A DNA stretch of 64,000 nt from Astropecten irregularis (lineage: Eukaryota; Echinodermata; Asteroidea; Paxillosida; Astropectinidae): contig OZ020244.1 of the NCBI GenBank assembly GCA_963971285.1, positions 3,658,001 to 3,722,000 of the forward strand. Reading direction: 5' to 3'. This document shows positions 15,511 to 59,630 of the stretch, one piece after another. Positions within the stretch are counted from its first letter, which is position 1, and each line of letters starts with the position of its first letter. The notes beneath the pieces are model-generated. The model searched no databases. It had not been told where the DNA came from and was given only the letters and a program-made list of their open reading frames with translations. Both the position numbers and the translations under genes were made by a program.

Positions 15511-15685
15511 CTTACAGACATTGTGTTAAAGCATCATGGGGATTGAAGAGGAATTTGAGGCCATTTTTGACCTCTTGGATCCGATGTTCAGAGGTTTCGT
15601 GGATTGTGAACAGCTGCAGGAATTTCATAAGGCTTTCTACTTCACATCAATAAATGCTGATCAAGTAGAGGCCGCAATCAGCCAG
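15511..15685 (+). CDS. Large gene exon 1 (start codon; degenerate EF-hand 1)
   Basis: Coding from ATG 15536 (residues 1-50, M-G-I-E-E-E-F-E-A-I-F). The ATG context is CATCATGG. The first EF-hand loop D15-Q26 keeps Gly at position 6 but has Met and Arg at ligand positions and Gln instead of Glu at position 12. An acceptor-like TTTTTCAG precedes 15511, so 15511-15535 is probably 5' UTR of a spliced leader exon. Donor GTATGG, phase 0. Confidence 0.85.
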
Positions 15686-18600
15686 GTATGGTTTAATGCA
15701 TTGTATGGATATTTATGTTGTTTCAGGGTATGAAACAATGATACATAACGAGTGGGATTTGAACCTTCAACCTTGCGGTTGCTGGACCAGATACTTCACC
15801 AATAGAGTGCTTTAGATTGGTGGGAACGTGGACCTCATTCACATCGACCACAAATGTGAGAACGTCATGCTGAATGTCAAAATCGTAATTTGTGCATCCT
15901 GGACTCACTGTGAGAACTATGGATATTTCTGCAATAATTAACGATTGGGATTCGAACCTGCAACCTTGGGGTTGCTGCGCTAGACACTGCATCTATGATT
16001 CATTCTGCTCATCGATAATGATGTTTCCAAGTTGCCAGTCACCTTGTTCGAAGCCATTAATTCTCACATATTGAGCTGTAAACAAAAGGTTGGAGGTTCG
16101 AATCCTGTTCCAGTCAATTTGTTCACTGACAGTGAGTTTCTGTTGCCATTAATTATGCAATGGTATAATGTTCATTTTTCAGTGGAACAGAAATGACAAG
16201 ATTGTTTTTGTTTTTTTTAGACAAGACAGGGGCGGATCCAGGGGGCCACGCCCCCCCCTTTTTCTTCCAGCAAAAAAAAAAAAAAGAAAAGAAAAGAAAA
16301 AAGAAAGAAAGAAGAAAAACAATGTATAGGGGAGGGAGAAAGACTCAAAAAGAGAAGAAAAAAGAGGGGGGAGAAAAAATTAGCTAGCTTTAATCGCCCC
16401 GAAATGCACCCGTCGCCATTGAATTGGTGCATTCTATTTCCACGCCCCCCCCCCCTTTTGGAAAATCCTGTATCCACTCCTGAGGGAGGGAGGGATTTTG
16501 TAGTTTCATGACTGATAGTAAGTATTCTTGATTCACCTGTTCTTGAAGGTGTGCAATGGAGGAGACCGATGCCCCAAGTTCTGTTTCCTAGATGTCCTGC
16601 AGGAGACACAGAGGAGGAGGACCATCGAGGAGCAAGCTTGGTGGGACTTCCGTGCCCTGGACAGCCAGGGCAACCACCGCATCACCCTGCGGGAAGCCCT
16701 AGTCCTCATGAAGGCCACTCACCAGGAGAAGTTCACCATGACGACCTGGGAGGCCTTCCGGAGGACCCGAGGCGCGTCCAGCAACAAGGACGTGACCTTT
16801 GATGAGATCAGGATGTGGCTGTGCAACCCTCCTTTGCAAGAAGAAGACGAAGAAGGGGAGATTAGAGACGTTGCTGCCATGGGAGAGATGCTGGACAGGG
16901 AAAAGCGAAGAGGCACCTACCAGGACCATAAGGATTTTCTGGCTTTACAGGTAAATTTCAAGAAGAAAGATAAAGCTAAGCCTCTCAAAAGAAAACTAAT
17001 GAAATGTATTCAGGATCATTTTGGCACCTTATCATGAAATTGAGTGCACAATCTTTCCCAGCATAACTATAAAGCAAATAATTATTCAACAAACAAAGAT
17101 AATGGACAGTTTGAGACATTAGGAACACACGGCTGGATAGCTCAGTTGGTAGAGTGCCAGTACGGTATTTCTGATGTTGAAGGTTCGAATCCCGCTCTAG
17201 TCAGTTTTCTTTGTTCATCTTTCAATGACAAATAACTATTCCTTGACAACTTTACAGACTAAGATGTACCCTTAGGAAATCATCAGACTTGCAAGGGGGA
17301 TAGGTGTACTCTTTGTTGAGAAATTACCGGTATTCTATAAATTTTGATCATCAAGTAACCACAAGGGAAACTGACTGAATTTAAAGTCATTTAAAAGTGA
17401 ACAAAGAAAAGTGGGATTCGAACTGGCGACCTCCTGAATACTGTATAGGCACAGTATCCTCTTTGAGTGATCCCGGCCCCCATGTACCTTTCCCAGGTTG
17501 CAGCATCGCTGCGCGTATCAGTGAAATGATCCTTGGGGTATGGCAGTGTGAGCATGGTTTCATGGCTTCTGAATGCCAAACGAACAAAGATGATTGACTA
17601 TTGGGGTCACCACCAATGTAGGGCTGGATGGCTCAGTTGGTAGAGCGCCTGTACAGTATTCAGAAGGTCGACGGTTCGAATCCCGCTCCAGTCAATTTTT
17701 CTTTGTACACTTTTTAATGTCTATAAATTTTGATTTATTAATAAAAATGGACATTTAAAGAGTAACCCTACAAAGCGGTCATTGTTGGTTGTATTCACTT
17801 TTTAGGAAGATGAGTTGTCTCAGACCTTGGAAGCTCAGGACAGACGTCAGTACCACCAGAAATTCCGCAGCAAGGCAAGACGAAAGCTCAACAGGTCAGT
17901 ATCATCTTTCTTAGAAGGAAACCAGAATAATTGAACATTGCCTTGTCTATGAGTTTCTGTAGGTTTTTTCTGCTCAGAGTTAGGAGGGCCTGAGGTTTCG
18001 ATCCCAGCAGGATTTTTCTCAAAATTAAAAGGCCTATAAATCATTCTAAAGGGAAACACAAACAAGATTTTACTCAGCGCAGCGTGGGCCGCCGTGGAGC
18101 TAAATGATGGGAATTTCAAAGCTACAACTCACCCCTCTACCGCAGCGCTGCGCAGCCCCCAGACCATACTGCAGCTTATTAACTTTAGCTATTGTGCTTC
18201 ATGTGTTGTTAAATTTCAAATTTCAGGTCATTATTCTGGTTGATGAGCAGTTTGCAGTAGTAATTTAATGTTTTTTTGTGGCTGGTTAATTTAAAGATGG
18301 GTGAATCTGGGTGTGGAGGCCCTTATCTTTGACGATGGAAAGGACTATGAAGTTGACTACAAGATGAGGAATCGGGTCACAGTGCAGGACCTCCTGGAGG
18401 CTCTGGAGCAGAAATATGACATCCTAAGGGAGAAACTGCTCTGGGAAGCCGTCAAGAAACACATCGGTTTGTAGACAAAAGTGCTCTGTAGCATCAATGA
18501 TTTCTAACTCTGAGTGGAGTTTATTTATAAACTTAACTTGGTATCATGTTCTGAAGCATACCGAAACAGAAATCTTCACAGATATATGTTTAACTTTCAG

Positions 18601-21600
18601 GGTATGAAGATGGTGATGGTAGAAAACTACCGTTGAAATATGTCTGACTGAAATGCTGTATTCAATCAGAAAAGAGTAAAACCTAAGACCCCAAAACAGT
18701 TTTAATCTCGGGGAGATCAAAACTCCTGTGAATAGATTTCGCGATTTATACTAGTGCTTAAAGTATACTTTAGGGGTAAATTTCATGAAGTCCTGCGATC
18801 GATCGTAACACAAGATACGAAGGATAACCCATCATATCCTACGTTATAGAGCTGCAATGCATCATAAGTCCTACGATTGATAAGTTTGGTGAAATTGAAC
18901 CCTGGGTCGGTAGCTGCCCTGTTTTGTGATGGTTTATCTTGAGAAAATTGTTATCTCCCTCTAAAACGTTGACAATAACTAGGTTGTCTTTACGTACTTA
19001 CCTCTCAGGTGAGCCAATCTGGTCTTCCATGTCTGAGGGCGAGCAGCAGGAACAGGTCCTCCGTGTCCAGATGAAAGAGCACCGTCTCAGGAAGAACAAC
19101 GACTGGGACCAGATGCTGCGTTTGGTCATCTCCTACCAGCACTATGACTCCCGGCTGACGGCCATGATGGGAAGCTTGCGCAGTGAGTTTGAGCGGCAGT
19201 CCATGGATCATCAGAGCAAGGTGGCTGAGCTGGAGACAGCCGGCAAGACAGAAGATCAGATCTATGAGATCTTTGCTAATGAGTACGCCCAGCGTGTACA
19301 AGGTGAGCTTCCAACGTCGGGTGTCAAGTGGATAGAAGATAAAATAAGATAACTAGGTTAAAAGGCCTTTCACAAGATTGATGGAACAGAAAGAAACAAG
19401 ATCACAACTGACAAAAACAGGCTGGCATTGGAATTGTTAGGTTAGAAATTGTCTTAAACATTAGCCTTTGAGAAAGATCCTGCTGGGTTTGAGACGTCTG
19501 GCTCTCCTATTAACTCAGAGCTTTTTGTGTTTTTCAGGTCAATAGTTTGGTTGATGAACAGTATACAGCAGTTTAGGACTTTATGAAATTATAGTTTAAA
19601 AATTGAAAAAAATGGGTCTTCGGATATGATGATAATGTTGCGCATGCAACAAAAGATGTCAAACCTCTCGGCTTGTTCAAATGAAGACCATGGGGCCAAT
19701 TTCAAAGAGCTGCTTAAGCACAAAATTTGCTTAATCATGAAAAGTCTTCCTTGATCAAACAGGATTACCAACCAGATTTTCATGTGATGTTTACTGCTTT
19801 AGACTTGTATCCGGCCATTGTTTGCTGAGCATAACATTCACAAGGAGTTTTGGCTGGCATACTCATTTTATTTATCAAGGTTTTTGGTGCTTTTAAAAGC
19901 AAATTGTGGTGCAGCTCAATGAAATTCATACCTTGATACAATTTGCGTCCTCTTGTGCCAGGCAATGCCTTTAGGGATATACTTGCTTCATTTGCAGTGA
20001 GCCTTCCCTGTTGATGAAAAACAGGATACTTTTATTGTTTGCATCATCATGAGAACCTTGAATGATGCCTATGTTTGTTTGTTTTTCAGGAGCTACAACC
20101 TGTGGGCAGCTTCTTGTGGACCTTCACAAACGTCACCTCAAGGAACGTGAGTTCCTGCTCTCTGTACTCAAGATGGGGAACCGTAGAGCACTGACCTCAG
20201 CTGAGATGATCACCGAGTATGCGTCACTTGCCGCTCAGCAGCTGATTGCCTCATATGAAGGAGAGTCATTTGAGTATTCCTCCATGGCAACGGGGCTGGC
20301 AGAACGCCCGCAGCAGTACATAAGTTTGAGGTAGGAGAAATGAAGAAATTATATTTGATAACAAAGACTGTGGATCTTTTTGTATCAGTAAAGATAAGCT
20401 GTGCCTGAGGAGTCCTATAACTATACAACCCCTGTCGTGATGTGGGAACCCGCTTTGTCGGAGTAAACATCCAGATCAAGAACTTGTGTACAGTGGACAA
20501 TGCTCATGACAGGTTACTAGCTGGTAGTTGCTCAGTTCTCATTGTGCTAGTAAAACTAAGTTCTGCTTGGGAGTTAGGAGTTAGTTTTTATTCAAGCAGG
20601 ATCTTTATCGAAGGCTAAATGACAAGTTGAACAAGAAAATGCAAGTGAAGATACACATAAATGAATGAGAATATCAGGACAAAAGGAGGGGGGGTTGGGG
20701 TAGGGAGGGTGGAGGAAGGTAAGTGTGGTCAAACAAAGAGAGGTCATGGGTATATAGGCAAGATCAAAGGTAGACAATAAAAAAGGTGTGGAGAAGAATG
20801 GGGAACACAATGAGGTAATTATATGTATCTGTACTGTGACTCTGTTCTCCCAGCTTTGACAGTGACAGAGACTTGGGGGAGCTGCTGGCCCTAGAGCGGC
20901 TGCACCAGAGGAAAGGCAAGAAGCCTCCCAAGGTGACTGACGATGATGGCCACCTGATCGGCAAGAACCGGGGCATCGTGGCCTGGCATGTGGAAGTTGT
21001 CAGACAACTCCTGAAGAAGCACAGTCATGAGCGAGAGGTACGTGCTTCCCTCGAGTGAAGTCTATAAAAAACAAGTGCTCAGGTGCAGTTGAAATGGTGT
21101 AGCTGTTCTTTCCTCACCTTCACTTCTTGCAACCTGGGTTTGGGTCCAGCTTGGTCAACAAGTGGATTGGGTTTTCAGTCCCAACCTGATTTTGTGGGTT
21201 TTACCCAGAATATCACTCTGGAGTTTTCTCTCCCACCTCTAAAACTGTATCTTTTTCTCATCATCTTTCCACAAAGGCTTCATCAGGCTTTCGAGCTGCA
21301 GTGCCTAGAGTGCTTTTGAGGAATTCTTGCTTTAATTACCAGAAAGAAATGAAGAAATGATAATAAATAGATAAAAGAAAGGTGGAGAATTTGGTTCACA
21401 GTTGACTCGGGCAGGATTTGAACCTGCGTCTTCTGTTTTCTAGTGCAGATGTCTTAATCTCAGATGGCATCTCCTGGTATCTGGTGATGTTAAAACCAGA
21501 GAGTGACAGGTTGTGCAACATATCTTCTCAATGCTATCATTTGCCACCTGTCATCTGTTAGCAGTGGTCTCAATACATCTAGGGTCGATTTCACCAAAGT

Positions 21601-24600
21601 CATTGTAACTTTCTATCAATCGTAGGACATATGATGCATTGCAGCCCTATATGTAGGATATGATGGGTTATCCTTCGTAACTCGAGTTACGATCGATCGT
21701 AGAGCTTCGTGAAATCGAATGCAGTCAGAACATCGTCACTTTACCTAACTGTCAACATGCAATTCTTGACTGATGTTCCGTTGCTAGGTGATGGTGTATC
21801 TTCTCCAAGGCAAAGAGAGCAGGACCTGGCTCTCAGTCGCACAGCGGAAGAGCCAGCAGCAGCGTGAGGACCGACTGAAGGAGCTACGTCTCCAGAGGTC
21901 TAACTGGCGCCAAGGTCCTTCTGATCATCTGATCTCCAAGAGGACCATGCACCTCAAGATCCTGCTGGAAGGAGCAGGTCTCTACCATGAGAACAGGTGA
22001 ATAACTAATGCGACTTGTTGTGTGAAAATGAGTCATAAGTTACAAGACCTGTTTACAAGTTATGGACCGTTATGACGTTTCAGATTATTATGACAATACC
22101 TGTATTAAAATGGATCCTTAATTAACCTGTGGAGCACTGCACAAGAATTACATGACTTGCATTATATCCAGCCTCTTTCAGTGTCTTTGCCATTTGACAC
22201 ATTATAAAGAGACAAGTGCATTTTATTTTTAATTGATGTGGGCTGAAATTCTATCCCACAACTGGTGAATCTGGCTACAATTAGAAATACATAGTGCCTT
22301 ACAAAACCAGGCTTGAGGCTAGGCTTGGGACTTATTTCCCTACTGCCATTTGAGACCCACAAAATGAAGGGATTGGGCCACATGATGAAGCCGAAGAAAG
22401 GCTCCAGCTTTGACATATATCTCAAGCCCTTTGTTTCATTTAGGACACAAAACGGCGGTAGCAAAATAAACACCAAGCCTAGCCTCAAGCCTCATTTCGT
22501 GAAGGCCCATAGTTCTTTCCACCAAGGTGGGGAAAAAGATAAAATATTGAACCAGTGGACTTCAATGAGTGCACACAGTTTGCCATTCAAGTTAAAACTG
22601 GAATCGATCAATGCACATTCGATATTGAGAAAATACATTTTAATCAAGTGTATTAGTTTAGCTTATACTGCATGGATTCAGGTGTACCCAATGGCCCATA
22701 GTCTGTTGATTTTGTTTTTACATAGTCGATGGTCTTTACATTTTTCTTGTGCATAGACGCCATGAGGTTCGCGGTGGCCACAACTTCACCGACAATCAAG
22801 TCTCAGCATGTTTGCTGGCCGATCTCCAGCAGAAGCAGGCCCAGGAGGTGGAGAGGGTCGTTGTGGAGATGCAGACGATGGTATGAGCTTGTCTCTCATT
22901 GCTAATCATCCTTACTCGCAGCTGGGGTGCTGAATTGCGAAGGATGCAGCTACAAGTTGCCAACATTCATGGTTGCCCTTGGCTGTCAGCCACAATAACC
23001 CATACAATGACCAACGAACACAGCCTGAGATCGAAAGTGTTCAAATTTTGTGGAGGGAGAAAAACCAGAGAACCTGGAGAAAGATCCTTGTAGCATAGGA
23101 GAGAAACAACACACAACTTTGACCCAAGCCGGGATCGAACCCTGGCCACATTTTTGGGCACCCTTGGCTGCCAGCTACATCAACCCTCATATGACCACAG
23201 CAGGAACGGAAATAATTGCAGAAGTGTTTTGAAGTGGAATACAAGACACTGATTTTGAAAATCAGAATTAAAAAATACCTTTGATGGAATGTATATATAT
23301 GTTTATATCTTTGTCGTCTGTTAATTGCAGACTGCTGATGTTCTGAAGGAGCTTTGGAGGCGTGAACATCGCTCTCGTATCGAGGAGTGGCTGGACAACG
23401 TATCAGCGGTCATCCTGTCGACCTTTGAACTCACCGAGGCAGACAAAGAGTTGATGCAAGCACTGGAGGACAAATATGATGTCTTGAGGTAAGAAGGGTG
23501 AAGGATACAAGTTGTTTTACCTTCAGAGTTAATTGATTCTTGTCGTCAAGCTTTGACTGGGGCCTGGGGAGGCTTCAGTATTGGGTCTCTGAGGAGGATC
23601 CTTGGGCTAGATTCCTTGCGAGTGATCCTGCCAGACGGATTCTCACTTTGAGAGAACCTACTGGTAGGACTCACCCGGTATGTGTCCACGTGATACGTGG
23701 TTGCGTCTGATGGATCGTTATTTTGCTGAGATGGGTCACGTGGCTGCCTGGAGGATGGCCATCAGGTGACCGAAGGAGTACCGCTTGAAGGTAGATGTGG
23801 CAATACGCTGTCACGTCACATGTTCCCACTGATTGATTGATTGATTGATTGAAGCTGTTGCCTTTTTTGAATCAGGGACAAGATTCTGGCGGAGAAACTG
23901 ATGAGTGAGATCGGCGAGAAGGAGTGGCTGTTGATGTCCGAACAGGAACGCCAGCGTCTCCTGATGAAGCGGAGACTGGAGGAGAGGCAGCTGAGGCGGG
24001 AAGGCAAGATGGACGAGCTGGCACGTCTCATTGGCAGTGCTGACCAGGTATTTAGACCCCACCAGTAGAGCTGGCCTCGGCCCCAGCCTCTTGGAGCTTG
24101 TGAGGAGCATATTACAGACTCCAGTATCTGCTTACCCTGAAGTAGTCACTGCTGGTCTTCTACTTTTTGTTTGGGTGATAGAGTTATTTATATTAGGTCT
24201 CGCCCTTCCCCTACGTGTATTAGTGCTGGCACGAGTAGGATTTGAACCCATGACCTTTTGCATGCTGGCAGTTTGAAGATGTTTAACCATCTGAACTGCC
24301 AAGCTAGCTAGTGTCAGTGGATTGACATGATGCCCTTCACTGACGTGTATCTGTGCTGGCTTGGGTGGGATTCGAACGCATGATCATCTGCTCACTATTT
24401 GAAGATGTCTTACCATCTGGACTGCCAAGCTAGTTGGTGTCAGTGGGTTGACTTGCCCTCACTAACGTGTATCAGTGCTGGCTTGGGTGAGATTCGAACC
24501 CATGACCATCTGCTTGCTATTTGAAGACATAGTTGGTGTTATGGGTTGACTTGCCCTTCCTGACGTGTATCAGCACTGCATGCTCAGTGCTTTCAAGTGC

Positions 24601-27600
24601 CCAGGGAAAACAAAATCAAATACCGGCTTGGGTGGGATTCCAACATACAATGGTTCTAGTTAATTTTAAACGATCTTCACGTTTTTTTTTTCTTTCGTTT
24701 ATAATTAATTCTGCTCCACTGCAGAACAACAAACGTCTGCAGAAACTCATGGGTAAAAATCGTGAGGAGTATGAGAAACAACTGGCAGCACGACTGGCTC
24801 GCAGGGAGCGCCGTCGTGCCATGGGCCTGGACTCTGATGAATCGGATGAGTCAGGTATGTTCAAATCAAAATATTAAGACGGTCTGCTGACATAATTGTG
24901 TCTAATTGTCAACTTGTATTTGTAGGACCATCTTGGCGATAATGTTTCTAACCTCAAGTATATGTGAAGGACCAGTCAAAATTTTCAGTCAAATTTTAAG
25001 TGACACTTGACTCACTTTGCTGGACTTGTTCCAATTTCTTGCCATAGATTCTGAAGATCCTAGCAGCCCTGGCAGCCACAACGTTCTGAGGGATCTGCAG
25101 TCTCGGTACGATGAAGACATGGATGCTTTGATGGCTCTCTTGCGCAAGCAGCAGAGCGGCGAGATGAGTGAACGGGAGAGGCAGGCTCTCCTGCTCCGAC
25201 TCCGAAGAGAGAAGAGGCGAGCAGCCATGGAGGACAACTTTGATGAGGCAGCGCTTCTTCTTGGTCTGGCTGAGAGGAATCGACTCAACATGGAGGAAAG
25301 GTAAGACTGTATCATGTCTCTTTCAAGAGTTAACATCATCACTTTTCCATAATGAATCAAAATTCCTCAAATGAACTTATACGCCTCTAGTAAATAATGC
25401 GGTGGGGTGTTGTGGCCTAGTTGTCTGGTGTGTCACACTCAAGGTCTTGATGTCAATCTACAGATTTTGGGTTCGAATCCAGTCATGGGCTAGTGGTGCT
25501 TGCATCCTTGGGCAAGACGTTATGTCACATATTGCTCCTCTTCACCCAGGTATAAATGGGTACATGTGAGAGTAGAGATGGCTTTGAGCTTGATTAGCCT
25601 TTGTGCATCTGACTGCAGCCGGGGCTGTATACGCCTCAGGGAGTTGAGATGGTTTCAAGAGTGTAAATGTAGTCCAATGACCTGGGATAATAATAATAAG
25701 CATTTAGAGGCTTCTGTCACTTTGCATTAAAAACTATATAAATGTTCCACATTATTACTGTTGTTAATATATTCCCAAATAAAACACTTGAAAGAAGACC
25801 AGGAGAAAATTTTCTAAATCTTAGAAATGCCCAACAGAATGAGATGTAAGGCCTATAGTCCACACATCGGTCCAAAAGTACAAAGGTAAAAGATTCTTGG
25901 ATCCAGTGTTTGTGAATTGAACACACCTGTGCTTTTGTTGTCAGGATGAAGGCTGATCGGGAACGGCAACTCCTTCTTGCGAGGGAACGGCTGGCCAACC
26001 GGAAACGGCGCAAAGCCGATGGGGAAGGGGAGATGAAGGATCACGAAGAGCTGCCCCTTCCTGCAGAAGGTAAACAAAAAAACCTGATCAGTTTTTGGGC
26101 CCAATCATGAGTAACAACTCCAGTATCAAACAGAAGAATGTGGAAACCACACAAACTTACAAGAGAGATTATACATACATGGTGCCTCTGGAAACTGTTC
26201 TTGACTTGCTGTCTTTGCCATGAACAGCGTAAAATCTCATCTGGGTTTGCAAAGTGAAGCAAGCCTCATATTGGTCTGCTGAGTTTTTAATTTTCCATCA
26301 GCTGTACTCTGGAGTGGAACGTTACATGCCTCACCTTTTAGGGGTTAGTTTTGAAGAAGCACCTTAGCAGTTGTTTCAAATTAAAATTGCATTTATGTTT
26401 GACCGATTCAGGTGATATCGCTGCCTGGCGGGAGGCAGTCCTGAAGGAGATGGACCGGAAGCACGTCAGGGAGCGAGAGCTCCTCCTGGCCACCCTGACA
26501 GACGAGGGCACCGCTGAGCTGAGGGAGGCTGCTGGCCAGATGGTCCAGAAAGTCCGCCAGGCGCGCCTCCAAGAACTCAAGGAAGAAGCCGAGCAACTCA
26601 ATCCAGACAAGAAAGGTACAAGACAGTAACATTCTGAAACTTGGTGTTCTCCAGTTGAGTTGAGGTTAAGAATAAGCTTGATGATTAAAAACTCAAGAGT
26701 TGGAAGGTGGATTCTTGACGAAGCCTAACTTGATGCAGTATGCCTCTTGGATTAGCAAACGTGATCTGACAAGCTGGGGTTTTGTTTGTTTGATGGAATG
26801 CAGAAGAAAGAGAGGGTCGTAGAGACATCTTGGAGGAGGCAGGGGCCATCAAGAGCATCCTGAGGCGGATCACGCTGAAGACCAAGAGGGGCGTCCAAGA
26901 GATTGAGATGGACGAAGTCAACATCAGCCTTCTGGCTGATCTGCAAGAAGAACAGGAGAGGGAGAGTGAGGTGGTCATGGCTGGGCTTGTCTCAATGGTG
27001 AGGGCTTCCATCCTTTACTCAACCATTAACCCTGATGTCTTGACCCTGATGCATTGAACCTTATGTCTTGACACTTAGGCTTTCCATTTTTTTTATTTAG
27101 TTTTACATACATGCTTTTTTGTTTTGATATGTGATTTACACGTACATAGCACTCATACTCACCCTTTGGACTGAAACCTTGGTAGTGTAACTTTAGGACT
27201 TCAAACTTTTTATACCTGAACTTTAAGAACATTTCTTGATTTGGTAGAAGTGAAGAAGAAAAATAATTCAAATCCTTCTCTTTATTTTCTTCAGTACATT
27301 TTATATCTAAGACTTTAGCATCATCATTAGTGTGAATTTTATTTTTGAGAGGAAATTTTAGTTGTACTTCTGAAATATTGAAACAAGATCTAGACTGGAA
27401 TATTTACATTATCTTATTTCAAAGGTGTTGCATTGACCCTTTTATAGATAGACGGCCTCTGGGATTTTGTGTATAAAATTTGAGCACAAACTGTCTCACA
27501 ATGCATTTTTCATATACCTTTACTGCACACTTGCGAACCTATCCATGAAATGGTGTTATTGTTGGAACTGTGTGTGTGAATTTTGTCCTTTCAGAGCGAG

Positions 27601-30600
27601 GAGGAACTGTCCAAGCTGCGCATGAAGCAAGTATGGGAGGCCAAGATGGACATTGGCAAGAATATTCTCACCATCTTCACTGTGTACGAGGGAGCAGCAG
27701 AGGATGATGAGATCTTGAAGGTTAGTAAGCTATCATTGGCATCTCCCATGAAATATGCTAACTGTAAGCAAAAAAAGTCTGCTATCATAAGCAAAGAATT
27801 TTTGCTTAACGGATTTCATGAAATTGGGCCCTGATGTGCACTTGAAGTGAGCTATACACAGAAGGTATAGCATTTGTTGGTAGTCAGATCTTTCTCAAAT
27901 TTCAGATTTTAATCTTATTTCTCGACATAGGCGCTAGACAAGAAGTACGACGCCTTGAAAGACAAGCTTCTGATTGACATCTTGAGGAGGCAACTTGGAG
28001 AGAAGGAATGGGCTCGGATGAAAGAGCAAGACAGGCAGAAGAAGCTACTGGAGCTCAGGCAGGAAGAACTCAGACTACGCAAAGAAGGTACAACACTTTA
28101 TAGCTGTCCATTAGGGCCTATAATAAATAATGACCATTCACGTATTTATGTAGTGCAATTCCAAGACTGGATTGTGCACTTTACAAGAAATATCTAAAAT
28201 GAAGCAAAATGTGTTGGGAAAAGACAGAGGACATGAGACAATATTATCATTAGCTTTAGCAACATTTAGGGGATGTTTATTGGGGCGATTAACCCAAGTC
28301 CTACTTCTGTCAGAAAATGCAGGAAAAAACTGAGATTATGCAAAAAAGGTAGCACAGAGAGATTAATTATGCAAAAAAGGTTGTACAGATTTCTGCTGCT
28401 GGTTGACTGAAAATTTCAAAGAAGAACTGTTCACTGGCCAATTAATAATGTTAATGCTGACACAGTTTTGATTTGAACGATGGCATGATTGAATATCTTA
28501 CTTTACTGATTGGTTACTAGGGAATATTGATGCCCTGGCAATGCTCCTTGGAGAACATGACAAGCAAGAGACGGATCTGAAGAAGCTGATGGGAGACAAC
28601 TGTGCCGCCTTCCAGGAGAAACTCAGGCTGCGACTAGAGAGAAGACGAAAAGGTCAGAACAAAAAATACTTCATTTTATAAACTTAGAAGCAAATTTATA
28701 AAACTTGGCCCAGACTATAGAACCATGAAGGAAGGAATTGAAAGGTTATATCCAAACAGGGCGTATTGATTGACCAATATGAAATGACCTGAGCTGTTTG
28801 ACCAGTTGTAAGGACCTGTTTGACTGCAGAACTCTGGACGGCCAGAGCACACTGGTCGAAACATTGAGAACTTACTGTCACCGGTTCTTCTCAAGACCAC
28901 ACACCTTCCAAGAAGAGTGTTATACATGGTGTCTCCGCAAGTCTCACTTAGTTCTAGACTCCACCATTCAAAACTTCAAATCCTACTTGTTTCAAGATGG
29001 TTTGAACTTATGAAGAATGTCAAGCAATGATGAGCGATATTAGCCAAGAAGGAAAAACACTGCTGTATCTGGTCATAGGGGGGCTATTCTTTACTTGCTC
29101 TCAATTATTTTATACTCATGATGTAGGCGGAGCACTGAGCGATATCAACGAAGAAGGAGAAATATCAGAAGATGAAGACGACCCAGAGGACTCGCAGAAA
29201 GACTCAAATCCCCTCAACGAGCTCCAGAAACGCTATGACACAGAGAGGGATAGGATACTGAGCCGGCTCAACAGCTCAGACTCTCTGTACATGGGTGAGA
29301 AGGAGCGTCAGGCCGAGCTGGTCAGGCTGAGACTGGAACTGCGCAAGGCAAGAGGGGAGGACAACTTTGTGGCAGCTGCGCTGGTCATCGGGCTGGCGGA
29401 GCGCAACCAAGCAGCTGAATCAGAAAGGTAGTCTTATCAAACTTTGATCAAAATGTCAAATTAGAAGTAATAAATTGCTTCAAACTGCTTATCATCCGGA
29501 CAAATGACCTGAAATATACAATGTTTGGAGTTAGGAGGGCCTGATGTTTCGATCCAAGCAGGATCTTTCTCAAAGGCTAAAATGGTTGGAGTTAGGAGGA
29601 GGGCCTGACGTTTCGATCCTAGCAGGATCTTTCTCAAAGGCTAAATGGTCAGAGTTAGGAGAGCCTGACGTTCCAATCCTATAGCAGGATCTTCCTCAAA
29701 GGCTAAATGGCCAGAGTTAGCAGAGCCTGACATTTCAATCCTAGCAGGATCTTTCTCAAAGGCTAAATGGTCAGAGTAAGGAGGGCCTGCGGTGGATTTC
29801 ACAAAGATTTACCATTCATCTTTCACATGAGTTGTTCCTGTTTTTATAGTAACTAGTATTGTGACATCACACTTTTGCCCTTTCATTTTTAGATTGAAGA
29901 ATGACAGGCAAAGACAGGAGACGTTGGCCAAGCAGCGAATTCAAGCCATGAGGAATAGACGGGCTCTTGGGACAATCCAAGAGGAAATGGATGAGACAGT
30001 GACTGATAACAATGATAGGAACTCCATGCAGGTATGTAGTCTCTCTGGTCTCCATCTTGGATCCAACAACAAGCTTTTGATCTTGGTACTCCAGCACTCT
30101 TGTCCAACTTGTCAAAGTATGGGATTACTATCGCATGAGGATTCAGTTTCACTGAGGGGTTGAGCACCAAAATTCACTGAGCATGAGAATGCCTTATGTG
30201 GATCAGTTTGCGGAAACACACGTAATATTCGTTCATACTTTTGTACTTCTTATTTCGTCGCACTTCTGGTTTGGTCTCAACGTTACGATTAGCCTGCTCT
30301 AGTCATCATCAGGGGTATGCCTTGCTTGGCAAAGATGTGGTAACAAAATACCAGTACCAATAAGAAGCAATCCACAGCAAATTGACTGGAGCTGGATTTG
30401 AACCAGTGACCACCGGAGTACCATACTGATGCTTTACCAACTGGGCTACCCAGCCCTAAGTTGGGGGTGTCCTTGTTTTTACATAAATATTGAAGATGCA
30501 TGCTATCTTTATCTTGATTGTCTTCCAACCAGGATGCCGTCATCCGCACTCTTGAGAAGAAGCACCGTTTGGAGCGGGAGGCGCTGTACATTCTCATGCA

Positions 30601-42600: not shown

Positions 42601-45600
42601 CACACAAGTATGATCAATTGATTATTTTCTTTGACTGTTTCTTTAGTTGGTGTTGCGCTGCACTCAACCATCTTGGATGAGATAGAGAAGAAGCATGGTG
42701 TTGAGAGGGATGTTCTTATGGAGCTACTGGAGGAGATTAGCAGGAACAAGCAGGAGGTCCTGAGAGTGGAACACCTGACTGAACAGGTATGGCAAATACA
42801 CATCTTCATTTGAAGTTCATTGTATGAAAGAGCAACATTTATTATAGCTTCAAAAGCAATGGGTCGATTCAGTTCTATTTTTTGAGAGTCTAAAATGTGT
42901 AATACTGGTTTAGGGACTATAAATCGCAGGCTATGGTTTCGCATGGTTGAAAGTGAATCATAGTTGATCAATCAATCAATCAACTAGATTATGTTCAACT
43001 TATGCTATGTGCTGATTTTCAACAAATGGATGATCATGAGTATCAAGTTGATCAACACATCAGTGATGCATCACGGTCATTTATATAATTATATCTATAC
43101 AAAATCCACACATAATCAGCAGAACCATTTTGAATCACCTGTCAACTGATATGTGACAAATAACAATCTAATTGGTTCATCAACACGATGTATACAAACA
43201 TTGCAATGTTGATCAACTGATTTGAACAGCAGTTGAAACTGTACTCAACCATTTGATCAAAACATTCAACATTTACTTGTAATATATACTGTAGCTCCAT
43301 TTGTCAATTAGATAATAAAAACATTCTTAATAAGTCAGTATTTCAGTCCATTCAACCACGTGATAAGAACTTCTGAATTTTGTTGGTGAGAATTTTAAAG
43401 AAATTGCTCTTGCAAATGTCCCGCCACAGGAACTTAACCAAGAATTGAAACGTTGCATGCAATATTGGAAGGAGCAGGAGAAGCAGCTTGGAAGTGGTGG
43501 CAGTGACGGGATCAACAATCTGGATGCAGTTGCTGAACTGCAACAACAGAAGAGAGATGCATTCAAAGTCGCCCTGCTTCTCAGAGTTGAAGGTATAAAA
43601 TGTTGGTTGTCATAGTTTTGCTGAGAAAACAAGAGCACAAGCTACAAATGCAAAACTAATGTGAATCCGCTAACATAAGAAATCTTAATCTTTTTCGCAT
43701 ATGTATCAACCATTTCGACTGCCAAAACAGATCCTCTACTCTAAGCTAGTCGGTTAAGGCACAAGACTGAGGACGCCCATGCCTGCACTTCAAAGACACT
43801 ATTAAGAGGAACATGAAACAACGGAACCTAGAGCCAAAGCCATTTAGTCTCCCTGGCTCAGCAGAAAAATGAGTGGAGAGCTGCTGTCAAGTAGTTTCAC
43901 GAAAGCCGTCTTTGTCACTCCGCGTTGACCGACAGCATTGATGATGATGATCAACCATTTTCTATATTGATTTTAGCATTTCTTGTGCATTCATCATGTT
44001 CAAGACAATTTTCTTTTAGAATGTCCCTTTAACTTCACTGTCTAAATGTTTTTACAACATGGCAGACTACCGTCGTAATATGAAAATCTCGACCAAACTG
44101 ACAACTGAAGAGATGCAGGAAGAGATCTTAGTGTCCCTCCTGGCGGACCTCCAACAGAAGCAGTCTGCTGAGAGCAAGGCCCTCAACAAGATTCTGTCTT
44201 CCGATGAGGTAGGGAACATGTTGCATTGGCTCTTGTGAGTGAAAGATACGGTCATTCTCAAAGTAAAGCAAAGTTTAAGTAAGACTTAAAGCTTTGCATG
44301 GTGGAAGTACTAATTAAGGTAGGTTTGCCGTGACACCATGTGAAGACACCTCCTAATTGTTACCACTAATAATATGAGCTATGAATTAGTTCTCCAATCA
44401 AACACAACACTGTGGGTAACACTTTTGTCTCCTAAAATCTGAGACAATCAAGGAAATACTATCAAGTGGGTCCACAAAGGGTGTTCTTAGAATTATAACT
44501 TTTCACTGTGATGTCAGATCACGCTAAAAAGTGTGAATTCTCTCTTCCTCAAGGACCCTGAGATGCCCAAAGCCGACGATGAGCTTCTCAAACAGCTCAT
44601 CTCAAGCCAGCGGGCAGCAAGACGTGAGCTCCAGCTTAAGAACCTTGAGGCCGTGGTCTTCGGCGGGTTGGCTACCATCAGAGAGGAAGAGGAGAAGGAG
44701 ATGGCTGCCGAGAGCAGACAGGAGGAGGACAAGATGGTCCAGGAAATGGAACAGGAGATGGAGCGGGAGAAACAAGAGCTTAAAGAGAAAGGTAGGTACT
44801 CAGAGAATTGACTCTGAAATTTGAGTAATGGAGATAATCGTAGACAGCGAGTGTATGATAAGATTTATGTGAGTGCAATTTAAGACCCGTGACTCCTGGG
44901 CCCTTTTCCAAACCTAGGCTCCGGCTCCGGTTCCGGCTCCGGCTCCGGCATCCATATGCTGAAAATAGAGGTTGTGGGTTTTCATTGAAGCTGAAGCTCC
45001 GCTTTCCCTTTCAAACCAGAGAATCTACTTCCGAACCACAGCCAAAAGTCTCTATTTTGATACCCGTTATTTTAAAATTGAGTCAAGAAATGGAGCTGGA
45101 GCCGGAGCCTGAGCCGGAGCCGAGGTTTGGAAAAGGGCCCTGGGGTCTATTTCGCCAAACTCCTCCTAATTACTTGCTATCAATCGTAGGACTTGTGATA
45201 TATTGCAGCCCTATGTAGGATGCGATGGTAAGTTTATCCTTCGTAACTTGAGTTACGATCGATCATTGGGCTTCGTGAAATTGACCCCTGTTCAAGTTAG
45301 GTAGTTGGACCACCAAGTCGGTGGTATAGGAATCCAAATTTGAATCTCGTGCAGTATTAAGCACCTGGCATAATATTCAATCACACAAATGGTGTGATTT
45401 ACTTTGTGTTCTTAATGCAGGTAGAGCTAAAAAAAGAAAGACAAGCCAATGGTTTTGTAATGGTCAGTTGGGATTTTTGTCCAAATTTTCTGGCCAGTGG
45501 GTTTGCTCTGAAAGTTCGTTTTTTGGAGGTGTGTAGATCAAAATGGAAAAGTGTTTTGAATAAGGCCTACGTATCTAGATTCCGGATAGCTCACTTCAGG

Positions 45601-48600: not shown

Positions 48601-51600
48601 GTTACATCAGAGTAGCACCAAGAGTTGACAATCGTAATGTCTTGCAGAATTTTACCACGTGCTAGCTCAGCTGGTATTTAGGTAGCAATTAATTTTTGCT
48701 TGTGCTTATACATGCCTCTTTCTTCCTGTTTCAGTGAATGCACTGAAGTCTGCAGGTGAAGGTGTTGATCCTGAAGCTCTGCTGGCTGAGTTAGAAGCCC
48801 AGCATGCCGCCAAGAGAAAGGTTAGGTTTAGGGTCAGATATTAACCATTAAACTGATTGTGAGCACTGGGGAAGAGACAAAGTGGCAGTAGCTCTTTGAA
48901 GAGGTCTGTCATTCCCAACGAATTCTCCACATTAATTTTGGGATTTCAGAAACTGAAACATGGGAATCCAGACTTCAGTACAGGTCTTATGTCCAACACA
49001 GTACTACAGGGTAGGCCTACATCAGAACGTTTTTAAAGGTCTTTGACAAAGATTCTGTGAGGATCCCAACATCAGACCCTCCTACATCTTGAGCATAATA
49101 TAAAAACCACATCACTACACACTGATGAGGTGAACATAGGTCCTTTACGAAACCAGGCTTGAGGCTAGGCTTGAGACTTATTTCACTACCCCCTTTTGAG
49201 ATTTGAGGCCCACAGAACGAAATAGAGGGATTGGGCAATGCGACAAAGTGGAAGAAAGGCTCCAGCTTTGTCATGTATCTGAAGGCCTTCATTTCATTTA
49301 GGACACAAAATGGTGGTAGCAAAGTTAACCTCAAGCCTCATTCTGCAAAGGCCAATAGACACAATGAAGTGCTTACCCCCTTGATGCTCTTGATCCAGGC
49401 CCTGCAAGACCAGCTTGAGAAGCAACGACGGGTGATGAGGAACAGACTCACCCAGAGACGGCAGAAGCAAGAGGACAAGGAATATGAGGAGGATGCAGCC
49501 ATGGCACTCATCCAGAATGCTGAGAAGATGCTGAATAAGAAAGATGAGGATGCACAGATGCTGAAGGAAAAGCAAACCAGTACAGTGAGTACATAAACAG
49601 TGTTTATATCATTAACATTACTAAGACAAATTGACTGGAGCGGGATTCAAACCAGCGACCTCCGAAATACTGCACCGGCACTCTTACATGTACCAACTGA
49701 GCTACCATAGCTGCCTGACCAGTCTGTTCTCCTTGTGGTTATTTGATGATTTTAGTTACATCACATCCGGAAACTTTGACATCGTTTATCCAAAATGAAT
49801 GCATGTATACAGTTATACTCTCAAATTAAAATGAAAATAATCTGTGTACCTTAGGTATGAAAGTGCAACAATGTTAGGGAGAGAAACTTAAATGGTTTGG
49901 TTAAGCCACTGAAAAGCCAGGGGTTGATTTCACTTGTCATAATCCGGTCAATCGTGGGACTTGTAATGCATTGCAGCCCTATGTAGGATATAATGGGTCA
50001 TCCTTTGTAATTCGAGTAACGATTGATCATAGAGCTTTGGGAAATCGACCACTGGCCAGGCCTGGCCTTTGCCTGGGGTCTTTCGCCTCTATAATCCCTA
50101 GCCTTGAACTATCAACTTTAAGCCCCTGATGTGTCCTGGATCATAAACCTGATTGACAGACTGAGTCCACATTGATCATGGACAGTATCCAGAAGCCAGG
50201 CTTGATTGATTTTTAGCAGCTCTGTTATACTGAAGTTCAGGGCTGGAGGCCTGGGCCTGACCGGGCTGGGCCAGGGCCAGACTTTTCAGTGGCTGGCCCC
50301 AACCAGTATTAAAGTAGTTTCTTTCCCCTAAATGAATGAGTCATAATGTAAGATAGTGAATGGTTTGAGTATAGTGATGTAACTTGGCTGCCATTACATA
50401 TTGTGTCCCAACAGATGAAGGCTAGACTGGCTGAGAGACGGGAGAAACGTCACCAGGCCGAGTTGGCCAAGGAGGAAGAAGAAAGGAAGGAGGCCGAAGC
50501 AAAAGCCAAGAAAGCACAAGCTGCTGCCGCTAGGGAACGCTTGGTAATAAAAAACAATCGATTGTATTTTGTTAGAAAATCTCTTGCCATCAGGGAGGAT
50601 AACAGATTGTTCAGATTGCCCTTTTGCTACAAATGATACATTAATCCATGTCCTTACAAAAGTATTGTAAGTCTTATGAAAATGTACAGCCAGCTTTTCC
50701 CAGATTGAAATCCTAGTTCATTGATGTTTCTTATTAAATGAACTCATACCAAGCGCCTAGAAAGAATATCTTGCTAGGTGTTATAAGAATATTGTTACTG
50801 GTGTACACTTCAAGAACATGCAGGCATACAATTCTCATGGAGGTGCACTTGCACTTGCCATATACTCAGAAAGACATTTACTCATACTATAAATAATTCT
50901 GAAAGACTCGTACTCATGGAGAATTACTGTACTTGCATTCATGAATGGCAAGTAAAACTATCACTTGGCGAAAGTGATAGCAAAATACTCATGTATTTAT
51001 AACCCTTTTTATCAAAATAATGCTCATAGATCTTTACACAAACTATACTACATCAATGGCCCAAACATGTATGTATATATTCGTCTCTTTCTTCTTCTTC
51101 ACATTATGCAATATGTTTCCTTGTTTGTTTCTTTGTTTGTTGGTTCCACTGAGCAGCCTCCAGGTTTGGGCATGCAGCGTGAGAAGACGGTGATTGACGT
51201 GACGGTGTCCGAGGAGAAGAAGAAGGCTGTGTTTGATTCCTTGATACGAGAACATACCAAGGCACAGCTCAAGATAGAGAAGGAACAAGAGAAACAGACA
51301 CAAATGGTAAACACAAACTATGAGTCATCTCTGCATGTGGTCTCTCATTAGGGCATTTCACACTACAATAAAATCTTCAGGTTGTACATGGGTCCAAACC
51401 TAGTAGAAGTAACTGATCTGTTCACACTGCAATATTTTACCAAGGCCCAGTTCAAGATTGAAAGGGAGCAAGAGAAGCAGACGCAAATGGTAAACAGAGA
51501 CCTAATGAGTCATCTAATAGCTAAATAGGGTCTTTCACACTACAATAAAATCTCCAGGTTGTATATGGGTCTAACCCTAGTATTTAAAATTGACTGACCT

Positions 51601-54600
51601 GTTCACACTGTGAGATTTTAACACTGCTTTGACCCCTGTAAAGTGCTCAACCCGTGTTGAAACTAACCATACTTTGAAGGTCAGTTGAGAGCGGTTGATC
51701 CGTTTGAAATTTGAGATGTGTTGAGAGTGGTCTAAACGCCTTGAAGCACATTTTCTGTTGTGTAGTATGAGCGCAGAGCATAATTGAATCTGATTCATGT
51801 TTGATAATAAACTGATCTGTTGATTATGTACAATTTCCTTTTTTTATAATTGAATGGAATGATTCAGTGATGTTCATTGGTTCATTCAACAATTTGGCTT
51901 GAATTTTACTCCTCAGTTGAAAGACCGAATCCAGCAACGTAAGCACCGTTACCAAGATGCTGCCACGATGCTACTGGGTCTGGGTGAACGACAGAAGACT
52001 ATGGTGGCCAAATCACAGAAGGTAAGAACAATTACCACAGTGCAAGGACGTTGACCTAGGGTTGATTTCACCAATCTCAACGTAACTTACTATCAAACGT
52101 AAGATTTCTGATGCATTGCAGCTGTACGTAGGATATGATGGGTTATCCGTCATAACTCGAGTTAATAAGATCAATCGTAGGGCTTCGTGAAATCGATCCC
52201 AGGTAACATTTACAGGTAACTAACTGCACTGCATGCAAAGGAAGACTTCTGTAGCAAAAGGCATTTTTTTTAATTTATTTTCCCTTCCGGTCAATCATAG
52301 ACTTTGCTCTTTGGGATCTCCCCAGTGCAGCACATTGTAACCTCTTAATGCATATGTTCAACATAGATACTTTACTCTGTCAGGGATGGTTTGTTTGGGA
52401 TGGTGACCCCACCTCTTATGTGCATACATGTGGTTCTAAGGAGAACCAATGGACTCAACATTTTGCAACAGGAGAGACTGCAGAGATTCTAGCAGTGATG
52501 GACAGTGTACTGTTCCGAAATGTTGAGTCCATCGGTTATTCACAACAGATCGAGTTATACATTGTACATGGTGTCACCGCTGTAGTGTTGTTCAATAACG
52601 CCCTCTATTGTTTGTTATGAGAAAGACTATGATGGCCGAATAAACCACTTGGTCAGATCAAAGTTCCACTTTCCTCATGCTAGTTAGGTCCAAAACAAAG
52701 CAGTCCTAACTCACTGCAGTCATCAGGAAATGCTGTATTTGATGGTTTGGTCATCTTCAACGCATACATGACCCGGATTGCATCCCTAGGCAACTGTACA
52801 ACTTGAAACTAATTCAGGGTAACGAAAATCTGGTTGCCCTAGGACATCATGGCGAGAGGCTTATCCAGAGAGACATCAAAAAATGGATCTCGGGTGGTCT
52901 GTAGAAGAGGCAGAGGTTGCAGCACGAGACCGTGTTATTTGGAGGAATCTGTCAAATCAGGCAGCATGTGCAGTTATGCACGATGCTTTCCAGTAGTAGT
53001 AGTAGAAGTAGTTTGCCACTCAGTCTCCACACCCACAAACAATCCTTGACGTGCTGTCTCCTCCATGAATAGCCTGAAATCTTATATATACTTTAATTCT
53101 TGTTATTGCCATACAGGAAGAGCGTGACCGCCAGCTGACCATGGTCAAGGAGCGCATCCAGAAAGTGAGGTTCGAGCGAACCCAGACCATGAAGCTCAAG
53201 CAGGACCTGAACGCCAAGACCTTCAAGGAGATGATAGGGCCAGACAAGGATTCAGGACAGTCTTCCGATGAGAAGATGGCTCAGTTAGCTGCGGACATGC
53301 AGAAGAGGTTCAAGAACGATGAGATGGAGATCAAGAAAGGCACCAAGAGGGTAAGGATAGCCAGTCTCTTCTTTCTATGCTATTTTGAGTCTGGTTGTTC
53401 TTCTTCGTTTTTCATTTTTGAAAATGAGCAAATGATGAAATGAAGGTGTAAAGTCAAGTCTCTTTGACACCAGGTGCCAATATCATAGAGCTGCTTAAGC
53501 ACAAAAGTTGCTTAAGCATGAAAAGTCTTCCTTGATCAAACAGGATTACCAACCAAATTTGCATGTGATGTTTACTGCTTTTAACTTGTTTTGCCATTGT
53601 TTGCTGAGCATAACATTCACAAGGAGTTTTGTTTTGCATAATGGTTTTATTTATTATGGTTTTTGATGCTTAAGCAAAATTTGGTGCTGAAGCATCTCTA
53701 TGAAATTGGCCCCAGATTCATTGGAACCAGGTTGGCCAATTTCATAGAATGCACCAAAAATGTACCCAGCTTAAAATGACTTCCGTGATAAAAACAGGAT
53801 TGCTACCAAATGCTATCATCATAGCATTTGTCATGCATTCAGCCGACTACTGGTTGCTTGGCAAAATATTCATATGTACTGGGTTTTAGACTGGCATCTT
53901 GACTTCATTCAGTGAGGATTTTTTGTGCATATGCAGATACTGTTTCTTAAACCAGGGGCCAATTTCATAGAGCTGCTTATAAGCACCAACATTTGATTAA
54001 GCACCAAAAACCTTGGTAAATAAAATCAGTTTGCCAGCCAAAACTCCTTGTGAATGTTATGCTCAGCAAACAATGGCCGAATACAAGTCAAAAGCAGTAA
54101 ACATCACATGATAATTTGATTGGCAATTCTGTTTGATCAAGGAAGACTTTTCATGCTTAAGCATATTTTGCCCTTAAGCAGCTCTTTGAAAGTGGCCCCA
54201 GCTTTGTGACATTGGCCCAGGCTTAATGACAATTTCAGGTTCTTTGGACTATTTTCTCTTATAATAATTCTATGAAAACTAAACAACTTAGATTTTTAAG
54301 AATCTCCCACTGCCCCTTTTCGGTTTTGATGAATGACTGTTTTTTCTGTAGTTGACACGTTATAGCCTGGCAGGAACAACTATCACATATCCAGTTGACA
54401 CTTCAATCACCACGGTAAAGAAGACTGCAAAATTCAAAATGGCAGAATCCCCACCCGCCCAACCCCCCAGCATAACCCTGGTTGTTTTGCATTATTAATC
54501 AAAGTTAACTAAACTATCAGTTATCTAGCCTTTGAGAAAGATCCTGCTAGGGTCTAAATGCGTCAGGCCCTCCTTACTTCAAGCATTTTAAACTAATAGT

Positions 54601-57600
54601 TAACTAAACTATTCGAGAAAGATCCTGCTAGGATCAAAACGTTAGGCCCTCCTAACTCTAAGCATAAATATAATGACTAAGTTGTTAATTTGCCCTTTTT
54701 TGCCTGCTCAGCTAAAGAAGTTTATATGAATGAATGAATTATGCATTTTTTAACAATGGGATATAATAACCTTTTTTCCCTATGGGCTATTAACAAGAGC
54801 CTGTTGTGCAGTGATTGTGCATTATGAGCATTTTGTTTCCAGCATTAATAAAAGGATACATGGTGTTTTAGCAATGAGTTTTATTGCCACGTCTTAGCCA
54901 CGGATTGCAATGGTGGATTCATGTGATCTTTTCAGGATGGGTGATGGATCAGCTGGAATATCGATTACAAATTGGCATGACTTAACAGTGTGTGGTGTTA
55001 TGTCATAAAATTGCAAAATATTGTATGCAGCATGTTCACCACACATACTAGATGTTGGAGCTAAAAAGGAAACCTTCAGCTGTCTAGGTCTAGGTCTAGG
55101 TCTTCACTCCATTGAAAATATGCAGAGACACTAAGACAGTAGACCTAGCCGTAGCTCTGGAAGCCTGTTTCAGACATGGCCTTAGCCAGAGGTCCAAATA
55201 ATACTAAGCATCTCTTGCAATTTCACTTTCCCCATTTCTTCAAAAGTTGTCGGATTTCCTAAGGGATGATGATGATATGTAACCATGTCATCGCAACTTC
55301 AAAATGAAAACCAGGTAAAACACAGCACTGAATGTGGGTGTGTGATGTTCAAAAAAACAACATGTGGATTTCTCCCTTGGCACTTTAATTGATGCTCCAC
55401 CCTAGAGCATCCTACTACAGGAGTTGCACTGGGGCCGACACTGTGAGCTGCTTGTGCTGGCACAAGATTCCCTACTGAAATCCCCACACTTTCCTCTGTG
55501 AGCACTCTACTGTATGCAGCGTGTAGTGACTTGGTAATAATCAATATTAATGCGGAAATGGGAAGAAAGTTGTCCCTCAGTGAATTTCATACAACTTTAA
55601 TCGGAGGACGTTAACCTGCTCTATTATTGTATTGAACCATTTGGGTTATTAATGGTACTATCATATTTTGGTAGGAAACAAAAACAGACATGTTCACAGA
55701 TTTACCTTTAACTTGCAGGGTATAAAGATAGACCTGGTATAAACATATCATAACATTTTTTCTGCCTGAAAACCTGTATTTTTCAAGAAATGAGTAAAAC
55801 AAAATACCAAAAACAATTTTTATCTCCGAGATCAAAACCTCACAATTACAATTACGCATCACAATTGCAATTGTTTTTCGCTGTTTTCTAATGTTTCCAA
55901 TGATCAATTGAGCTGAAAATTCATGTTTATTTTTATTCCATGACAAATTGTGAACAGACCGCAGCTGTTTTATCAACTTTACCAAAGTCAGGCGTGCAAC
56001 TTGGACTTAACAAACACCGAGGAAATTCCATTCTTTACCATACATTGCACAGTGTTTTTTACTTTTTAATAGCATAAGAGTGAAGTGAAAAAAAGAGGAA
56101 ATCAGCTGATCCGAGGAAAAGTTGCATGCCTGCAAAGTATGATAGTACCTCTAAACCTGACTCAATTTCTTTTTTGCAGTTCTTGTATTGATGTTATGTG
56201 TCTCCAATTATTTTTTGAGAAATGACTGACCAAATTTATTCATATTTTTAAATTTCCTTTTGTTTACAAATACTTTTCCCAACATTTGCCGTTACCCAAC
56301 CACCAAAAGGTCAGTAATAAGGAACAAAGTTTTAGCTTTTTGAAAAGAAATTCAGAAATCTAACCGTACCAATATTGATGGGAAGTGATATTGACATGAA
56401 TAACTGATTAATATGAATTCTGTTGCACCAGCTTTGACTTTCTTTTTAATATTATTTTTTCCAAATGGGTGATTGTTGTGTACTTTTCCAACTGTTTGGT
56501 CTTTCAAGAACCCGGACACTGAACAACCAGTGAGTAATATGGGCTTCAATGTAATTTATAACGTGAACTGTCATCACACTGTCACGTGCATCTCTTTCTT
56601 TGCTAAAACAAATTGAACAAACCAACACTTCTATGCACTATACCTTTAATATGGATACTGCTATTCTCTTGATACTGTTTTTCTTTTGGTTGTATTCAAT
56701 TGAAATTGTTAATGTATTTCTGTTCACACTGGGTGGTGTCTTAGTAATATTTTGGTGACATTTTGTATTTTTTCAGTCTTCTTCTTAATCGTGTCCACAC
56801 ACATCATATGGTGTGTTTCAATCAAATCTGTACACAACCCATCATTGTACCTTGCAAGGTCATCAGCTTTGCATTTGTGCTCCAATAGAGGACACTTCAA
56901 GAGGTGCTCCATAGTTTGTGGTTTTTTTTTAGTAAACATGGGTCATTCCATTATTTTCAGACAAGATTTGTTATGCATGTAAACCTGTAAAGTCATTGGA
57001 TGTACCATTAATTTTTATAATGAGTGAACACTGGCAATTCATTTTTCACAATGGAATTGAAATTATTAGTTTGTGTACCCAAATTTAAATCCTAACCATT
57101 TGATTTTGTATACATGCCATGATAAAGAGAATTTGTTCAATACAATTTTAAAAGGACATGAAATACATTTTGGATGGAAACTTTCAGTTCACGTATAAAA
57201 AGTTAATTTTGTCAGCATCAACATTTGATCTAATAGATCATTGTCACCTTCTTTTTAGAATCCATCAAACTTATTCTTGAGTATTTGAAGGGTTTGGTTG
57301 GGTTGAAGCTGTGAGAAGGAATATCAAATTATTAGTCTGGGTTGGTTCACTTGGTAGAGATACTTTGGTTGTTCTGTGTATTTTTTTCCAAACCTTATTG
57401 GTTAGACCTATATTTGCATTTTTGTCTCATCTTCCCTTCAGTATCATGAATTTCTTGTGATAGATTTCCATTCTAAAATTATCTGTAATTATTAATTATT
57501 GATTAACTATCTATCTGTTACTTCAAATATTGATAAAATCCCTTTCTGATAATACTTTGTTGTAAAATAGATTAAAATGATTAAAATGTCTGAAATGCTG

Positions 57601-59630: not shown

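Follow-up and report, generated by a model that had tools for sequence, protein, structure and literature searches.

The window analysed here is a stretch of 64,000 nucleotides of the Astropecten irregularis genome (contig OZ020244.1, forward strand, positions 3,658,001 to 3,722,000), and all nucleotide positions below are counted from its first letter unless a contig is named. In a self-trained gene model with manual curation, the plus strand between positions 15536 and 59630 can be read as a single spliced frame of 46 exons, which encodes 2,799 residues and is free of internal stop codons. The predicted protein has a mass of 327 kDa and opens with an EF-like head (residues 1-184), followed by five tandem units (residues 185-2329) and a C-terminal region. 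The features of this giant gene are as follows.

15511-15685, plus strand: exon 1 with a presumed 5' UTR piece (coding part 15536-15685); UTR acceptor tttcag assigned by eye, ATG at 15536
16549-16950, plus strand: exon 2, remainder of the EF-like head, residues 51-184
17806-17894, 18297-18466, 19009-19302, 20090-20330, 20854-21037, 21788-21996, 22757-22880, plus strand: exons 3-9, unit 1, residues 185-621
23331-23488, 23876-24047, 24725-24854, 25048-25300, 25945-26069, 26412-26615, 26804-26997, plus strand: exons 10-16, unit 2, residues 622-1033
27595-27720, 27931-28087, 28521-28652, 29127-29427, 29893-30031, 30533-30707, 31490-31683, plus strand: exons 17-23, unit 3, residues 1034-1441
32466-32660, 33131-33368, 33924-34042, 34847-35028, 35833-36040, 36839-37000, 37948-38106, plus strand: exons 24-30, unit 4, residues 1442-1862
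38447-38629, 39329-39491, 40175-40365, 40636-40856, 41799-41995, 42647-42786, 43430-43592, 44066-44208, plus strand: exons 31-38, unit 5, residues 1863-2329
44554-44791, 48735-48820, 49399-49584, 50415-50543, 51157-51306, 51917-52021, 53117-53350, 59346-59630, plus strand: exons 39-46, C-terminal region, residues 2330-2799
45421-45462, plus strand: optional exon of 42 nt, judged by eye to be open in the required frame and excluded from the model

The reading frame ends in exon 46 with a TGA stop codon at 59628-59630, and an in-frame TAA begins 9 nt upstream of the ATG at 15536.

Other features of the window lie around and within this gene. An exon on the minus strand at 9407-9736 encodes the Kelch domain of a host cell factor (Kelch_HCF, E 4e-62) and belongs to a gene divergent from the giant gene, and a histone 3' UTR stem-loop (Rfam RF00032, 37.8 bits) occupies 3975-4019, also on the minus strand. 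Rfam gave five tRNA matches (1733-1805, minus; 17131-17203, plus; 17622-17694, plus; 30383-30455, minus; 59988-60060, minus), two of which were also called by ARAGORN and three of which sit inside introns of the giant gene; these are perhaps tRNA-derived short interspersed repeats. Minisatellites were detected at 29528-29789, 31801-32153, 38117-38352, 39573-40070, 58888-59242 and 62854-63410. Those at 38117 and 58888 have units of about 60 nt containing GATCCT(G/A)CTAGGAT, and a similar stretch is present near 15400.

The gene-finder was trained on seed exons picked partly by self-similarity, used splice-site tables in both gene-finding and scoring, and its output was then corrected with the help of three-frame translations. 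Before curation the automatic result comprised 55 exons and 2,681 aa. Curation by hand removed 13 exons of 9-56 nt, added four (15536-15685, 18297-18466, 42647-42786 and 50415-50543) and shifted three exon ends (16592 to 16549, 26843 to 26804 and 41964 to 41995), so that the final exon count is partly a matter of judgement. Exon 4 (18297-18466) has a weak donor. Near exon 43, a 183-nt tandem duplication of 1.8 copies (51255-51582) covers the 3' end of the exon and thus places a partial second copy of it in the following intron; the segment 51445-51489, a copy of the exon end, had been taken by the automatic finder as a small exon and was dropped in curation. A first-pass annotation of the same DNA had described one continuous open frame of 47 exons and about 2,820 residues. 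The continuous frame was recovered here with about one small exon fewer, and the additional exon of that earlier count is probably the 42-nt stretch at 45421-45462.

All 45 introns in the final model are bounded by GT and AG and have consistent phases. Since the gene-finder permits nothing else, however, neither these properties nor the one-gene outcome constitute independent evidence for the model. Independent support comes from the score: with a codon table derived from the final model itself, the plus strand reached 1,369.7 and the minus strand 79.9, and four versions shuffled in blocks of 300 nt gave 42.9-66.9.

The five tandem units measure 437, 412, 408, 421 and 467 residues and are encoded by blocks of 7, 7, 7, 7 and 8 exons, in exact agreement with the unit lengths and exon blocks (3-9, 10-16, 17-23, 24-30 and 31-38) given by the first-pass annotation. 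Pairwise identity between units is 27-42%, with unit 1 the most divergent of the five. In alignments, none of 200 full shuffles reached the score of any of the ten unit pairs (z 13.4-34.9), nor did any of 200 shuffles that preserved blocks of 28 residues (z 8.4-14.0). Three markers occur once per unit and in the same order in all five: GE..W (residues 271, 687, 1098, 1508 and 1930), KH...R (504, 917, 1328, 1745 and 2196) and L(L/M)ADLQ (599, 1011, 1419, 1840 and 2306). Ten of the 12 spacings between successive copies of a marker fall within 408-422 residues, the other two, both leading into unit 5, being 451 and 466. The earlier proposal of a five-copy repeat with a common order of motifs is thus borne out by the markers and by both shuffle controls. 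The self dot-plot, set beforehand as a refuting test of the repeat, contained off-diagonals, with 1,555 windows above the highest score of five shuffles; these heaped at offsets of one, two, three and four units (400-440, 820-860, 1220-1280 and 1640), and minor accumulations at 120, 280 and similar offsets reflect the sub-repeats. Across the five units 43 alignment columns are invariant, including glycines at unit-1 positions 87, 141, 165 and 253.

Profile-profile comparison showed that each unit has an internal structure of its own. Sub-repeats A and B, each about 105 residues long, are related to one another; a third copy, C, is partial, and a block called D carries the L(L/M)ADLQ motif. Homology between A and B was supported at 97% (E 1.7e-11) and between B and C at 84% (E 8.1e-6), the similarity of A and C was weak (E 0.0033), and block D had no convincing relation to the other blocks (E 0.0097-0.3). 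Four reversed controls gave E values of 0.26-0.37. The repeat also extends beyond unit 5. Within the C-terminal 470 residues, residues 109-321 are colinear with part of the unit profile (positions 84-282 of 435; 93.6%, E 2.2e-7), where the lowest E value among 60 shuffled tails was 0.047 and the reversed tail gave 0.4. The core profile scored 15.1 bits on the same 470 residues, whereas none of 500 shuffles exceeded 9.4. As both matches stand clear of their controls, we describe the protein as carrying, beyond its five full units, a sixth that is partial and degenerate.

The positions of introns within the units were then compared. All six unit borders are in phase 0. One internal intron, in phase 2 at alignment column 272-273, is at exactly the same place in units 1, 2, 3 and 5, and its counterpart in unit 4 is 3 nt off, beside an alignment gap. 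When introns were placed at random, a position common to all five units within 3 nt arose in none of 20,000 placements, and within 9 nt in seven of 20,000. Units 3 and 4 have one further intron position exactly in common, and the remaining introns differ. This pattern fits a multi-exon unit that was duplicated long ago and whose introns have since turned over; the intron data do not show copying of each of the seven exons as such. Of the earlier claim that whole seven-exon blocks had been duplicated, tandem duplication at the level of the unit therefore stands, but exon by exon it is only partly visible, with one internal intron common to all five units.

The region built from these units was described in the first-pass annotation as a coiled-coil rod. 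Proline makes up 1.4% of residues, one stretch of 534 residues is free of proline, cysteine amounts to 0.4%, and the units are high in E, K, R and Q. The size of the protein, its scarcity of proline and its charge fit an extended helical rod. Hydrophobic periodicity in the rod was, however, not cleanly heptad: the signal at 3.5 residues was weak (z 2.4), with values of z 4.1 at 3.8 residues and z 3.2 at 5 residues. No clear heptad was seen by this measure, which makes the coiled-coil description less firm than the first-pass annotation put it. The helical reading of the rod is drawn from composition and alignment. Given a pattern that is helical but not cleanly heptad, together with the invariant glycines, we prefer short hinged helices over one continuous coiled coil.

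Searches of sequence and structure databases returned no named family with this layout, in line with the first-pass annotation. In Pfam, nothing exceeded a curated cut-off when the head with unit 1, units 2-5 and the tail were scanned, and the best E value for ten sub-repeats was 0.02; S100 families were absent at E<=0.1, as were actin-binding and spectrin families from the Pfam scan. In NCBIfam the five units gave a sole match, to the isonitrile synthase model TyIsonSynPvcA, in one unit. Against the PDB, the head with unit 1 gave nothing convincing for the rod, and unit 4, the unit profile and the sub-repeat profile gave either no match or E>=1.3. In searches of open-access literature, no paper was recognised as describing this protein.

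Several weak or isolated matches were considered as candidate relatives and rejected. These were Nup96 (E 0.0046), FAM184 (E 0.013, and E 0.02 for two of the ten sub-repeats), HAAS (E 0.014), Rpb5_C (E 0.022), NRBF2 (E 0.069), LMWSLP_N (E 0.079) with S-layer chains (E 0.088-0.1), TPR_10 (E 0.11) and TyIsonSynPvcA (E 0.0015 in one unit of five). A close bacterial, archaeal or viral relative was also rejected: of the 117 and 20 pattern matches obtained with 229 residues of unit 4, none was confirmed.

Within the 475.7-Mb genome, a six-frame search with unit 4, in which the best candidates were scored, gave 15 matches at E<=0.01, all 15 inside the giant gene, and the corresponding search with the head gave two, both inside it. 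No paralogue in the same genome was seen with unit 4 or the head as query, at a sensitivity that short or diverged copies could escape; because only the best candidates are scored in this search, the gene is single copy at that sensitivity. The mitochondrial code of the same assembly points to an echinoderm. Its mitochondrial contig C168 (16,335 bases) carries a COX1 with ten in-frame TGA codons, and where AAA codons could be compared with the best-matching solved cytochrome c oxidase subunit 1 (8ugh_4A, 837 bits), all 4 of 4 coincided with asparagine. Reading AAA as asparagine is a trait of echinoderm and flatworm mitochondrial codes, and the strength of the COX1 match makes an echinoderm the likelier of the two. 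Two further COX1 matches were recorded elsewhere in the assembly. One, on contig C131 (102,890 bases), has no stop codons in the standard code, and this contig is probably a bacterial contaminant. The other (C25:9951047-9952018, in a contig of 14.4 Mb) contains seven TGA codons and is probably a nuclear copy of mitochondrial DNA.

The head (residues 1-184) resembles the calmodulin superfamily. Parts of residues 4-137 align with centrin, calmodulin and myosin regulatory light chain, and all 19 of its PDB matches at E<=10 carry the names of EF-hand proteins. However, its best E value is 0.026 (centrin), its Pfam match to EF-hand_7 is below the cut-off (20.2 bits against 30, E 7.6e-4) and its loops are mostly non-canonical. 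The canonical Ca2+ loop is DxDxDGxxxxxE, and the pattern D.D.DG was found nowhere in the protein. Three loops were assigned as EF loops by their spacing and rated with an ad hoc score. The loop DSQGNHRITLRE at residue 88 is near-canonical and the best in the head, DPMFRGFVDCEQ at residue 15 is degenerate and ends in Q in place of the final E, and GASSNKDVTFDE at residue 125 is poor, starting with G and lacking the first D. A stretch at residue 157 scores slightly above loop DPMFRGFVDCEQ, the highest value in the whole protein belongs to an acidic linker of unit 3 (residue 1177) outside the head, and 23 of 500 shuffled heads reached the head's best loop score. The head had been annotated as Ca2+-binding. 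An EF-like head is supported, whereas Ca2+ binding is a weak claim, because the head is sub-threshold and its loops are mostly non-canonical. Published work on such modules states that Ca2+ requires an E as the final residue of the loop, that the EF-hand pairs of NIN and FIP3 bind a helix of LIC1 without binding Ca2+, and that LIC1-binding EF-hands are not predictable from sequence (PMC7655957). Given this target binding by NIN and FIP3 without Ca2+, a head that binds its target independently of Ca2+ is no less plausible here than one that senses Ca2+.

Considering the head and the rod together, the reading that we favour, at about even chances, is an intracellular extended scaffold made of short glycine-joined helices with regularly spaced sites, whose head docks a partner under little or no Ca2+ control. 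The rod would be a chain of short helices linked at the conserved glycines rather than an unbroken coiled coil. Because the units are equal and their order is fixed, they may present equal, evenly spaced docking sites, and if every unit offers an equivalent binding site, the whole would form an extended scaffold with a regular pitch. Like other calmodulin-like heads, this one may dock a helical peptide belonging to a partner, with Ca2+ having little or no say. No partner-binding motif was identified in the protein, and a cytoskeletal setting, such as that of the crosslinker suggested in the first-pass annotation, would be a guess by analogy of architecture.

Four other explanations were weighed. 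The first, unlikely in our view though the best of the four, is that the protein is a dynein-dynactin adaptor of the ninein kind, in which an N-terminal, non-Ca2+ EF-hand pair grips the helix of the dynein light intermediate chain and the rod reaches to dynactin, the centrosome or cargo. The order of parts is alike, since in ninein and the other EF-hand dynein adaptors (NIN, FIP3, CRACR2a and Rab45) the EF-hand module also precedes a long helical region. However, five long super-repeats are not a known feature of EF-hand dynein adaptors. The protein moreover contains no match to [ST]LF.E, the Spindly motif. The poor loops of the head would agree with the non-Ca2+ EF-hand pairs of NIN and FIP3; against this reading, LIC1-binding EF-hands are reported not to be predicted by sequence (PMC7655957).

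A relationship to spectrin, alpha-actinin or plakins, that is, a chain of three-helix bundles linking cytoskeletal filaments and equipped with an EF-hand module, is quite improbable. It was examined because the sub-repeat, at about 105 residues, is as long as a spectrin repeat (PF00435 has 105 positions), and the spectrin superfamily likewise combines repeats of about 105 residues, a long rod and an EF-hand module in one protein, much as this long, helix-prone protein with its EF-like module does. The EF-like region is N-terminal here, unlike in the spectrin superfamily, and the Pfam scan returned no actin-binding family. In a profile search of the genome, in which 150 of 193 candidates were scored, none of the 82 matches listed was on the contig of the window. 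Comparison by hhalign with 12 spectrin stretches from the genome gave a probability of 0.4%, whereas a positive control pairing two halves of the spectrin set gave 99.6%. Neither this genome profile search nor hhalign showed homology to spectrin repeats (PF00435), and only analogy is left.

Equally doubtful is a structural filler of the trichohyalin kind, in which a charged helical rod with an S100/EF-hand head would be cross-linked in some special tissue. The abundance of E, K, R and Q, the low cysteine content (0.4%) and the EF-like head agree with it, and trichohyalin and other S100-fused proteins (including filaggrin) have an EF-type head followed by a charged, repetitive helical body. The repeats of trichohyalin lie within one exon, whereas the present gene has many introns (46 exons), and no S100 family was matched at E<=0.1. 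In addition, the units have kept their motif order at 27-42% identity, which argues for a specific constraint. Finally, it is very improbable that the splicing model has joined more than one gene across the 44 kb, or the pieces of a gene in decay: the long introns preceding exon 40 (3.9 kb) and exon 46 (6.0 kb), and a gene-finder that could return one gene only and whose answer is thus no test, leave some room for it, but 2,799 codons run without a stop, homologous units follow in order with phase-0 borders, neither the other strand nor the shuffles score comparably, and the last exon itself has a weak repeat-like match (2.8 bits).

Giant rod proteins such as titin, nebulin, spectrin and ninein set distances and hold the machinery of cells. 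The favoured reading of an extended, regularly spaced scaffold can be carried further, tentatively and at long odds, to a founding example of an old and unrecognised animal repeat family. Its modules would be hinged at glycines with a period of about 412 residues and present four ordered docking surfaces per unit, forming a molecular ruler held by a degenerate, Ca2+-independent, calmodulin-like head. The order of motifs has been kept over five to six units despite their deep divergence, and no convincing relative was found in Pfam, NCBIfam or the PDB. If the protein is conserved across animals, it would be a large structural protein, and its repeat supplies a profile that can be used for searching immediately.
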